Below, piece after piece: positions 49,076 through 52,536 of a DNA stretch of 52,536 bases. Made by a program: the position numbers and the translations under genes. Source of the DNA: Beroe ovata (lineage: Eukaryota; Ctenophora; Nuda; Beroida; Beroidae). A model generated the notes under the pieces. The model saw only the letters and a list, made by a program, of their open reading frames with translations, did not search any database and had not been told where the DNA came from. Where the stretch lies: the NCBI GenBank assembly GCA_946803715.1, contig CAMPET010000127.1, positions 102,454 through 154,989 of the forward strand, given 5' to 3'. Positions within the stretch are counted from its first letter, which is position 1. Each line of letters begins with the position of its first letter.

Positions 49076-49703
49076 ATATCTTCACTTTTAGCTTTTCCAA
49101 GATTCAATTATCATTAATACAATATTTCTAGATATTTATCTTTCAAAAAATGACATCACAAGTTGATTTAAAAGATAATTATTATATTCTTTATAGATAT
49201 TAATACTGATTGTTAAAAGAGCCTCTCCAGAAATAAGAATTCTATTTCGCCAAAATGTAAACTTCTCAGATGCAAAAGGTTTCTCACCAGTTAAAACATT
49301 ATATTTTCAAAATGTGCAGTGAATGGGAAGGTATCTTTTAAAGCTTGTTTAGTGGAATATGAATAGACGTCTTAAAGATAGGGTATATTAACCAACTTAG
49401 GAATAAGTGAAGGTTAAATACCCATTTGTTGCATCTATTTATTTGTTTATATCTTGGTTGGGGCCTTCAGACCCTCCATATTTTAAACTTATCTACACTA
49501 CTTATTACAATCAAATTTGAGGTATGAATATGGAAAGTATGAGATAGAGCGGCCAGCGAAAATCCTGCAGAGATAGAGCAGCCAACAAGAATCCTCATCG
49601 TACCTAATTTCAACTACCTCTCCAGTGTTCAGGCTGAGTGTTTTGTTTTGTGAATCATCATTTTTCTCTCAGTCTTTCAATTATTTGAACCTTGTTCACT
49701 GAA
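49076..49703. other. Stretch before the retrotransposon ORF1
   Basis: AT-rich, with no gene. It may include the 5' UTR and promoter of the retrotransposon, but the element's 5' boundary cannot be placed from one copy. Confidence 0.4.
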
Positions 49704-51254
49704 ATGGAGTCATTCAATTGCAATAACTGTAAGTCTCTAGCTAAGCAGTGCAATGAGCTCAGATCTGAGATTGCGTCTCTGACTCAAAAGATGGATGCTC
49801 TTGTAGAGCTTCTATTTCATGATCAGGCTGATAAGTCCTGCCAAACAGACCCAAAACCTATTCTAACAACTTGCTCAGTGCAGACTGACCCAACACACAG
49901 TGATTCAGAATCAGGTGATGTTTCAGCAGCATCTGATACTCTATTTGACATATTCTGCAAGGCAAGTGAGTCACCTGCTTCCCATCAGCAAGTAGATAAA
50001 CCTCACACAATCCAGCAAGCAGAAATTCCTTGTACAATTCTACCAAACCAACCCTTTGTTGAGTTTGATCTCAAGAAATTGGACTCAGAAACAGAATTCA
50101 TTCAATCTCATAGCAACAGGTTAACATGTTATTTTGGTCAGTACCCCTATTCATATGGTAATACAACTCATCCAGCTTGCCCCTTGCCACCAGCTAACAC
50201 CTATCTTGCCAAAATCTTGCTTCACCTGAACAAATTGCTACCAGACTATCAGTATAATAGTGTACTCCTGACAAAGTACAGCAACAGCTCACACAATCTT
50301 GGATTTCACAGTGATGATGAACCAGAAATAATCAACCACTCAGAAATCGCTACAATATCACTGGGTGAACCAAGAACTGTTAAGTTCAAATCAAAATCAA
50401 AAACCCAATCTTCATTTGAGGTCCTTCTCAAGCATGGCGATGCTTTTCTCATGAGTAAAGAGTCACAGCACTCATTTGAGCATGCTGTACTTCCTGGGGA
50501 AAATGATCTTACACGCATCAGTTTGACACTCAGAAATCTGAGTCCTCCCTGTCAGAATATTGCCTACTCACAAGTCCTCAGCCAACCACATGTACGAAAC
50601 AAGAACCCCTGTCCTCCTGAATCTAACCAGACACTCTATATAAGCTCGAGCATGTTCAAAGGACTGCAGGAGAACAAACTCACTTCAGCATCTCAACTTG
50701 CCAAGGTCTTTTCATACCCAGGAGCCACTGCTGAGGGCATACTAAAGAAGCTTCAGCAGGATAAAAGGTTTCTGGAAATCAGCCCCACATCCATCAGACA
50801 AATATTCGTGATGTGTGGCACAAATAACGTGGACCAGATCCTCAACATTGGGAAGACAAATCATGGGAAATTTGTCTTAAATCATTCATGTTCTGACCAG
50901 CTACTGAACAAAGCAAAGAGGGACATCAAACAACTTGTTGACTACCTTCACAGAAGAGTTCCTCAGGCCACCCTCAATATTATCAACATTCTGCCAAGAA
51001 TCAGCTTGTGTAGAAACTTAGTAATCAACCAACTGAATCACTTCTTAAGGAGTTTGAGCAAGAATAACCCTCACATCAACATGATCGATACCGAATTTAA
51101 CCGTAACCTGTTTAGCTGGAAGTCAGGGGAGAGAAAGGACACCTTCTTTAGCAAGAGTGGAACTGACAACGTTCATCTTGCTCCATTGGGAGTGGCAAGA
51201 CTTGGCAAACATCTTAAGTATTTTGCCCATGCGAACATGCAAACACTACATTAG
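49704..51254 (+). CDS. LINE ORF1: coiled coil + AlkB-like 2OG-Fe(II) dioxygenase + SGNH-hydrolase-like domain
   Basis: 516 residues; start at ATG 49704, in frame with a weaker TTG at 49692. Residues about 1-40 are a Cys-containing coiled coil (NCNNCKSL, LRSEIASLTQKMDALVELL), then CQTDP and CSVQTDP motifs. Residues about 117-280 match the AlkB dioxygenase core: YNSVLLTKY, HxD iron ligands H202 and D204 in GFHSDDEPE, ISLGEPRTVKF, the third ligand H260 in SFEHAVLPG, and the 2-oxoglutarate-binding RxSxTxR (R271 and R277). AlkB enzymes oxidatively remove alkyl groups from DNA or RNA. Residues about 310-510 look like an SGNH hydrolase: ISSSM (Ser316; the usual block I Asp is Ser), YPGAT, MCGTNN (G372, N374/N375) and DNVH (D488, H491). 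Esterase domains are known in some LINE ORF1 proteins. The AlkB part is the unusual one. Confidence 0.85.
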   Translation: MESFNCNNCKSLAKQCNELRSEIASLTQKMDALVELLFHDQADKSCQTDPKPILTTCSVQTDPTHSDSESGDVSAASDTLFDIFCKASESPASHQQVDKPHTIQQAEIPCTILPNQPFVEFDLKKLDSETEFIQSHSNRLTCYFGQYPYSYGNTTHPACPLPPANTYLAKILLHLNKLLPDYQYNSVLLTKYSNSSHNLGFHSDDEPEIINHSEIATISLGEPRTVKFKSKSKTQSSFEVLLKHGDAFLMSKESQHSFEHAVLPGENDLTRISLTLRNLSPPCQNIAYSQVLSQPHVRNKNPCPPESNQTLYISSSMFKGLQENKLTSASQLAKVFSYPGATAEGILKKLQQDKRFLEISPTSIRQIFVMCGTNNVDQILNIGKTNHGKFVLNHSCSDQLLNKAKRDIKQLVDYLHRRVPQATLNIINILPRISLCRNLVINQLNHFLRSLSKNNPHINMIDTEFNRNLFSWKSGERKDTFFSKSGTDNVHLAPLGVARLGKHLKYFAHANMQTLH

Positions 51255-51345: not shown

Positions 51346-52536
51346 ATGGCTAATCTTCACAATCTCACCTTAGGACACTGCAATATTCAAGGGGGTTTAA
51401 TAGGGATTTCTAAATCAAGACAAATTTCAGACTTGATCACCAAATATAGAATGGATATTCTCTCCATCAATGAAACAAACCTTAACGATACAATAAGTAC
51501 CAGCACTCTAAACATAACTCCAAATTATTCGTTTCTCCGCCGGGACAGAGAGAAAAGTTCAAGGGGTGGATGTGGAATTATAATCAGTAATAAAATAGCC
51601 TATGATGAAAACGTCAAACTGGAGCCTACTGACAGAACTATTGAAGCTAAATGGGTGAAAATTAAGAGCAGTAACATCTACGTCTGTGGGTTCTACAGGT
51701 CAAATAATTTCTGTAAGCTAGATGACTTTTTAGACTACTTTACTGAATGTATGATAAAACTTAGGGGAAAGAAAGTCATCTGGATTGGGGATATCAATGT
51801 AGACCAAAATAAAATTACAAGCCCTGACTATAAGAAATTGGACTCAACTCTGAAATCCTTCAATATGATTCAAACTATCCAAAACTATACTAGAGTAGCC
51901 AAACGGGGTAGTAACTTCACCTTGAGCACAATAGATGTAATTTTCACAAACTGCTACTCAGATTTTGAAGAGTCATCAGTCCTTCCTGAGAAAATAGGTG
52001 ATCATTACTCCATCAAATGTAAACTCAATTTCAAGGTAGAACTTCCACCGAAGTATCAAAAAGTATCAATGCATAATTACTGTACGAATAATATTAAATC
52101 ATTCCAATCTCATCTTAGCAATCTGAATTTCGAGCCACTATATCAGTGTCAACAAGTGGACAAAGCTGTCTGTATTTTAGAAGAACATCTTAATGAACAT
52201 CATGACCACTTCTTCCCTCTCAAGACATCTAAAAAGCACCCAAATTTCATCTACAAACCTTCTGAAGAAAGCCTAAAAGCAATTAAAGCTAAAAAGAAGC
52301 TTCACAGGAAATTTAGGCTTAAGCTTAAGAAAGTTGAAGCGTCTAGATGCGGGAATTGTAACGTGTGCCACAATTGCATAAACGTCCACATTGCTTGGGA
52401 CGATTATAGGAAGCAACGTAACTTAACCAACAAAATCACAAAGAATAACAAACGTGACAATCTAGTGAATGATCTGAGGGCGAAATGTGCCAAAAATGAC
52501 ATAAAAGGTATCTGGAAATCAATCAAAGTTGCTGCT
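51346..52536 (+). CDS. LINE ORF2, N-terminal part: APE-type endonuclease, then Cys cluster
   Basis: 397 codons open to the window edge. The exonuclease-endonuclease-phosphatase fold is complete with its catalytic residues: HCNIQGG (Asn), LSINETNL (Glu), WIGDINVD (Asp and Asn, where GDFN is usual), STIDVIFTN, and IGDHYSI (Asp-His). In LINEs this nuclease nicks the target to prime reverse transcription. After it comes a basic region and a CxxCxxCxxC cluster (CGNCNVCHNC, about residues 335-344) before the expected reverse transcriptase, which is cut off. Confidence 0.9.
   Translation, partial: MANLHNLTLGHCNIQGGLIGISKSRQISDLITKYRMDILSINETNLNDTISTSTLNITPNYSFLRRDREKSSRGGCGIIISNKIAYDENVKLEPTDRTIEAKWVKIKSSNIYVCGFYRSNNFCKLDDFLDYFTECMIKLRGKKVIWIGDINVDQNKITSPDYKKLDSTLKSFNMIQTIQNYTRVAKRGSNFTLSTIDVIFTNCYSDFEESSVLPEKIGDHYSIKCKLNFKVELPPKYQKVSMHNYCTNNIKSFQSHLSNLNFEPLYQCQQVDKAVCILEEHLNEHHDHFFPLKTSKKHPNFIYKPSEESLKAIKAKKKLHRKFRLKLKKVEASRCGNCNVCHNCINVHIAWDDYRKQRNLTNKITKNNKRDNLVNDLRAKCAKNDIKGIWKSIKVAA

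Follow-up and report, generated by a model that had tools for sequence, protein, structure and literature searches.

The window analysed here, 52,536 nucleotides (nt) of contig CAMPET010000127.1 (C127) in the 77.8 Mb, 534-contig assembly of the ctenophore Beroe ovata, contains a long interspersed nuclear element (LINE) of the esterase-ORF1 kind whose first open reading frame (ORF) protein has gained an AlkB domain. In ORF1 this 2-oxoglutarate (2OG)-Fe(II) dioxygenase domain lies between an N-terminal coiled coil and a C-terminal SGNH hydrolase (Table 1). Both active sites are near-perfectly retained over wide divergence. Judged from sequence and fold model, the AlkB domain looks like an apparently working enzyme of the methyl-removing kind.

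The AlkB domain of ORF1

ORF1 residues 133-277 matched Pfam 2OG-FeII_Oxy_2 (PF13532) at 1.6e-22 (81.1 bits, cut-off 31.2), and further AlkB profiles matched as well. A preliminary description of this DNA, made from the sequence alone, had reported a complete AlkB motif set between a coiled coil and an SGNH-like domain. This was confirmed. The HxD...H iron triad (H202, D204, H260) and a two-arginine motif (RxSxTxR here, residues 271-277) are present, and the domain has the double-stranded beta-helix fold. Profile, fold and conservation together rule out a chance or false Pfam match.

Both by sequence and by fold, the nearest families are ALKBH3 and ALKBH2, followed by E. coli AlkB, with ALKBH8 far lower; ALKBH3 is the best sequence match in the profile search. 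E206 lines up with the Glu in HSDDE, the ALKBH3 motif, and all 72 ungapped rows of the alignment described below retain it. The equivalent residue in a related ORF1, L015, aligns with ALKBH2 HRDDE. ALKBH5 was not found at E 0.1 in the sequence profile search. FTO stood at rank 48 of the Foldseek list for the domain model; absence from the fold lists, as for ALKBH5, does not exclude a family. Structural matches were also found in a viral structure library. The trees contained human ALKBH2 and ALKBH3 (one segment of each) and two ALKBH3-like genes of the host, and the window domain did not fall inside the ALKBH2 or the ALKBH3 clade. The window clade branches apart from both, and we therefore propose that the domain works like these enzymes and not that it is an ALKBH3 orthologue.

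The preliminary description had read the domain as a nucleic-acid demethylase for 1-methyladenosine (m1A), 3-methylcytidine (m3C) or N6-methyladenosine (m6A). The demethylase part holds as a predicted activity, the nearest enzymes being those of direct m1A and m3C reversal. The m6A option is less likely than was claimed, because the nearest families are ALKBH3 and ALKBH2.

Conservation of the two active sites

Searching 5.8 billion proteins yielded 79 matches at E 0.001. Alignment A1 comprises 74 of these and the window protein (75 rows); P0076-P0080, which had no significant SGNH match, were excluded. P0001-P0064 are referred to as the window clade and P0065-P0075 as the distant rows. The named relatives came from the ctenophore Mnemiopsis leidyi (P0061, P0064, P0201) and most others from environmental contigs. 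The P0201 gene model runs from a partial AlkB domain, through a stretch whose weak GDSL match (0.0081) falls short of the cut-off, to an RVT_1 reverse transcriptase.

The preliminary description had named two refuting outcomes: profiles that fail to match AlkB, which the matches above contradict, and free loss of H202, D204, H260 or R271 in other copies. In the query and these 74 of the 79 matches, every ungapped row retains the iron ligands and both arginines. H202 and D204 are kept in 61/61 ungapped window-clade rows and 11/11 distant rows; H260, R271, S273 and R277 are kept in 63/63 and 11/11, and T275 in 62/63 and 11/11. N185 is kept in 61/61 ungapped window-clade rows and is not retained in the distant rows.

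The predicted SGNH-like C-terminal domain was borne out by profile, AlphaFold2 (AF2) model, fold and catalytic residues. Residues 335-496 gave a weak Lipase_GDSL_2 match (3.5e-5, under the cut-off), and the esterase matched the ZfL2-1 esterase structure 4c1b at 6.6e-12 by profile. S316 is kept in 64/64 window-clade and 11/11 distant rows (75/75 in total), and N374 in 62/62 ungapped window-clade and 11/11 distant rows (73/73). Taking the window clade and distant rows together, 60 of the 70 ungapped rows keep D488 and 69 of the 70 keep H491. G340 is glycine in 64/64 ungapped rows; as 11 rows are gapped there, the oxyanion glycine is unplaced in most distant rows.

Both domains were at least 60% covered in 68 of the 75 aligned proteins, and the SGNH domain fell below 60% in four (P0044, P0047, P0057 and P0062). 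A host ALKBH exon adjoining a LINE is ruled out, since the reading frame is continuous with the esterase, those 68 relatives hold both domains and the host AlkB genes lie elsewhere. Mean column identity in the window clade was 0.54 for AlkB and 0.53 for SGNH, compared with 0.36 over residues 1-60 and with 0.34 and 0.21 in the two linkers. The window ORF1, L011 and L013, compared in three pairs, share 43.5-55.5% amino acid identity. The proportion of synonymous differences (pS) was 0.81-0.85, a saturation beyond correction that makes dN/dS impossible to give as a number; the nonsynonymous proportion (pN) was 0.24-0.35 in AlkB and 0.24-0.36 in SGNH.

Table 1. Features of the Beroe ovata element, in window positions (pLDDT, predicted local distance difference test).
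Feature	Position	Strand	Basis or remark
5'-terminal block of 41 nt, spliced-leader-like, ends TTTGAG	49481..49521	+	Repeated core; shared with related loci
ORF1	49704..51254	+	516 amino acids plus stop
CxxC and coiled-coil helix, residues 6-39	49719..49820	+	Conserved Cys, AF2 helix 7-39, heptad pattern
Disordered linker, two QTD motifs (SCQTDP, SVQTDP), LC8-docking-like	49821..50015	+	pLDDT, family motif enrichment
AlkB 2OG-Fe(II) dioxygenase domain, residues 105-281	50016..50546	+	
HxD iron ligands H202/D204	50307..50315	+	72/72 ungapped rows; 73 rows span the columns; P0064 gapped
Third iron ligand H260	50481..50483	+	74/74 ungapped rows; P0064 gapped
RxSxTxR 2OG-binding motif, residues 271-277	50514..50534	+	R271 and R277 in 74/74 ungapped rows; T275 in 73/74
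SGNH hydrolase (esterase) domain, residues 305-513	50616..51242	+	AF2 model, profile and fold matches, conservation
ORF2, 5' part with endonuclease domain	51346..52536	+	PF03372 (Exo_endo_phos), 2.7e-9; runs past window end

Origin of the AlkB domain

The first AlkB tree had 43 rows; the first 120 residues of the L018 frame were excluded from the trees. A node at 93/75 unites the window clade (15 rows, 99/92) with another ORF1 clade, which includes L015 (11 rows, 100/95), and the joined clades stand apart from the ALKBH3 of human and host. Neither ORF1 clade takes in L030 with P0070 or L036, the last on a long branch. L016 and L018, also on long branches, fall in a set with ALKBH2, ALKBH3 and P0076 (89/82), and this placement speaks against a single origin for all ORF1 AlkB domains. 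A second, quick tree added 48 free-standing AlkB proteins from the matches listed (120 of 239), with host ALKBH4-, ALKBH6- and ALKBH8-like rows excluded. Its 32 ORF1-labelled rows, P0076 being ORF1 by label only, required 2 changes compared with 25.7 in shuffles.

Its separation in the trees from the ALKBH3 of host and human and from the 48 free-standing proteins marks the AlkB domain of the window clade as an old, independently maintained part. Recent capture from the ALKBH3 of the present host is ruled out for this clade by both trees. The branching fits one old gain or a few, which may have been followed by divergence and perhaps by exchange between LINE lineages.

Other copies in the Beroe ovata genome

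PF13532 gave 18 rows in the genome. Four are loci of the window family (C127, C133, C105 and C99); C133 and C105 share 2166 nt at 99.95% identity and may stem from a single copy that the assembly broke in two. Of the remaining rows, five fall at four other ORF1-like loci (C181, C6, C414, C86), two at the degenerate loci C235 and C63, and seven in host AlkB genes. Two further ORF1-like loci, C420 and C244, were added by protein search. RxxxTxR or RxxxSxR occurs in all nine ORF1-like loci long enough to show it.

Several of these loci differ in their surroundings. C244 (L036 5557..7767, -) is a 737-aa frame with a PHD-like cysteine stretch (by eye), a coiled coil, AlkB (1.8e-12) and then a weak GDSL match (4.8e-5, under the cut-off). 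Downstream of C414, on the same strand, lies RVT_1 (5.6e-16). After C6 come a frame whose endonuclease match is sub-threshold (2.7e-4) and one that is reverse transcriptase-like by eye and has no Pfam match. Taken together, C244, C414, C6 and the other ORF1-like loci place the AlkB-SGNH pair in several dissimilar ORF1 lineages. L023 (1077..4508, +), with L022, holds a 1144-aa frame in which an AlkB core has no iron site and the GDSL domain is kept (8.7e-11); the frame is possibly domesticated or decaying. A second copy of the core lacking the iron site lies at C63.

The host AlkB genes include L010, which is ALKBH3-like, L001, which groups with human ALKBH3, and L014, which joins AlkB to a methyltransferase. 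We take L021 to be ALKBH4, L019 ALKBH6 and L020 ALKBH1. Genome-wide, PF13472 gave 18 GDSL rows, four of them at AlkB loci; the other frames are about 190-430 aa and could include esterase-only ORFs.

ORF2 and the N-terminal region of ORF1

ORF2 begins 91 nt beyond ORF1 on the same strand and enters an assembly gap of 1270 N just past the window end. The reverse transcriptase and 3' end of the window copy are unreadable because this gap interrupts ORF2; the sequence after it resembles, by eye, the end of another LINE. Over 395-396 codons, ORF2 is 65-68% identical in amino acids to that of L012 and L013. Of the endonuclease and reverse transcriptase that mark a LINE ORF2, the endonuclease lies in the window and both are present in the related L012 and L013. 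L012 ends in a short ATTCA-like repeat (by eye). The reverse transcriptase motifs look CR1/L2-like, a tentative clade placement.

At the N-terminus, Cys6 is kept in 51/52 and Cys9 in 51/53 ungapped window-clade rows. The AF2 pLDDT is below 50 at residues 40-78 and 88-103. The 56 window-clade linkers hold 38 [STVC]QT[DEP] motifs against 1.5 in shuffles, and 49 QT[DE] against 3.4 (12 in the highest of 500 shuffles); as the shuffles preserve composition and not relatedness, related sequences enter this excess repeatedly. Of the 56 linkers, 32 have one [STVC]QT or more and 15 have two or more, whereas the 11 distant-row linkers have none. Half of the motif spacings in the window clade (14/28) are 11-13 residues. 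Multivalent LC8 docking uses a TQT anchor within a disordered region (PMC7861614 and PMC5746249, both in part). The QT arrays of the ORF1 linker resemble such docking, which would dimerise the ORF1 protein (ORF1p). LC8 is needed for silencing of transposons guided by PIWI-interacting RNA in Drosophila (PMC7861614, in part), so ORF1p may compete for LC8, a further and unproved idea. An arginine-rich motif between the domains was not seen by eye in linker 40-104; it is described as frequent in CR1 members, rather than as required (PMC3905857, in part).

A leader-like block at the 5' end

The 26-nt core of the 5'-terminal block has about 400 genome copies at up to 3 mismatches (191 + 209; control 0), preceding unlike sequences. 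One sequence family is frequent among the 20 loci cut out. The block is also found at the 5' ends of L011 (~1969-2010) and L013 (~1946-1989), and in L030. It looks like a spliced leader of about 41 nt that retrotransposed copies would have brought along at their 5' ends. That the block is a promoter specific to this element is unlikely, because the roughly 400 copies precede unlike sequences. For a spliced-leader RNA gene (leader, GT and Sm site), 26 exact leader-GT places were found including the window; six others, inspected by eye, gave no convincing case, which leaves the spliced-leader reading unproved. In a glass sponge of comparable genome size (80 Mb), the spliced leader measures about 37 nt (PMC10282587, in part).

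At L044, L057 and L045, the leader-like block lies between inverted flank copies of 42, 41 and 14 exact nt (shuffled mean about 7), a foldback arrangement.

Discussion

The window ORF1 has the coiled coil and the SGNH hydrolase with catalytic residues that define a Type IV (esterase) LINE ORF1, as in CR1/L2/RTEX elements such as zebrafish ZfL2-1 (PMC3905857, PMC4120745), and in both cases ORF1 lies upstream of an endonuclease-reverse transcriptase ORF2. The window ORF1 differs in the AlkB domain between coiled coil and esterase and in a linker that is QTD-rich and not arginine-rich. The terms 'AlkB' and 'dioxygenase' have 0 occurrences in the main text of those two papers. Esterase ORFs are common to different retroelement classes (PMC5408684, in part), and AlkB does not occur in the available part of that source; nor do the available parts of PMC6338049 and PMC6015446 give a LINE-encoded AlkB. 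The preliminary description knew of no such fusion, and we found none in the open-access library searched, mostly at the level of listings, a search that left Repbase and most subscription journals outside.

An AlkB-like ORF in a Phalaenopsis Ty3/Gypsy element is likewise a retrotransposon-encoded AlkB-family demethylase with an intact iron site (PMC9289625, in part). However, it is a separate extra ORF of an orchid long terminal repeat element, ALKBH5/ALKBH9B-like, m6A-active in vitro and described as recently acquired, whereas the window domain is an old, ALKBH2/3-like fusion to a LINE ORF1. The replicases of plant RNA viruses (Alphaflexi-, Betaflexi- and Closteroviridae; PMC9289625, in part) also place AlkB in a mobile RNA-based genome, but as a replicase domain, without esterase or reverse transcription. 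The ALKBH3 and ALKBH2 repair enzymes are free-standing cellular genes, and most ORF1 AlkB domains form tree groups of their own.

We propose, with a probability of about one half, that the ALKBH2/3-like domain of ORF1p cleans the element's own RNA template before reverse transcription. ORF1p would self-associate through its coiled coil, possibly helped by LC8 bound to the linker, and would assemble on the element's own RNA. The AlkB domain would strip the Watson-Crick-face methyls m1A and m3C that would block the element's reverse transcriptase. Such cleaning in cis, before target-primed reverse transcription, would give more full-length copies. At membranes, the SGNH domain may tether the particle or remodel it, a role already suggested for ZfL2-1. 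Cleaning in cis is favoured because m1A and m3C block reverse transcriptase, the nearest enzymes remove them and esterase ORF1 proteins are without defined RNA-binding domains. The last point is taken from the description of these proteins (PMC3905857, in part).

It is less likely, and on balance doubtful, that the domain erases host RNA or DNA methyl marks (m1A, m3C, m6A or the DNA mark N6-methyladenine, 6mA) used for silencing or sensing. The in vitro activity of the orchid enzyme on m6A RNA (PMC9289625, in part) and a described effect of m6A on L1 (PMC7873242, in part) favour this. The nearest relatives, however, are of the ALKBH2/3 kind, with no ALKBH5 at E 0.1, and fusion to ORF1 favours the element's own ribonucleoprotein. 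In L1, the ORF1 protein is known to act in cis on the RNA that encodes it. Somewhat more unlikely again is that the domain protects DNA, repairing alkylation in the cDNA or the target while target-primed reverse transcription proceeds, much like ALKBH2 on double-stranded DNA. ALKBH2 prefers double-stranded DNA, and ALKBH3 prefers single-stranded DNA or RNA; ALKBH3 is within 1.3 Z units in the fold comparison as well as the best sequence match, and the protein occupies the ORF1 (RNA-packaging) position. A non-catalytic nucleic-acid-binding module replacing the RNA recognition motif or zinc-knuckle parts of other ORF1 proteins is improbable: it would fill the RNA-binding gap described for esterase ORF1 proteins (PMC3905857, in part), and C235 and C63 retained the core without the iron site, but the iron and 2OG residues are present in all 72-74 ungapped rows, beyond the needs of binding alone.

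Several points weigh against template cleaning by ORF1p. In three of the 75 aligned proteins (P0055, P0059 and P0064) coverage of the AlkB region is below 60%; P0055 and P0059, probably incomplete, begin late within it, and the Mnemiopsis gene model P0064 lacks it. In the profile search, three PDB sequences named DNA N6-methyladenine demethylase appeared at E 0.065-0.086, with no single stretch passing alone. The sequence and fold model do not tell an ALKBH2-like preference for double-stranded DNA from an ALKBH3-like one for single-stranded DNA or RNA, and the activity, RNA binding and substrate of ORF1p are predictions. Retention of the motifs in other copies of the same genome, a check named in the preliminary description, was found in part: HxDxE is present in 10/10 ORF1-like loci including the window, but C235 and C63, of another lineage, have lost HxD. 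The loss of the iron site indicates that the AlkB domain is dispensable in that lineage.

More tentatively, the AlkB-SGNH ORF1 proteins may represent an old, widespread LINE class with its own template repair, whose named members are so far from a ctenophore and in which ORF1p, brought together on the element RNA by coiled coil and LC8 arrays, would erase m1A and m3C so that reverse transcriptase reaches the 5' end. If this is true, a retroelement-encoded epitranscriptomic repair step would be built into the packaging protein. The AlkB domain adds a second enzyme to a LINE ORF1 protein. It provides a testable direct link between RNA base methylation and retrotransposition, and raises the question of whether methylation that blocks reverse transcriptase is a host weapon against LINEs. 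An RNA-associated demethylase that evolved beside a reverse transcriptase may also be of interest for reading modified RNA by reverse transcription.
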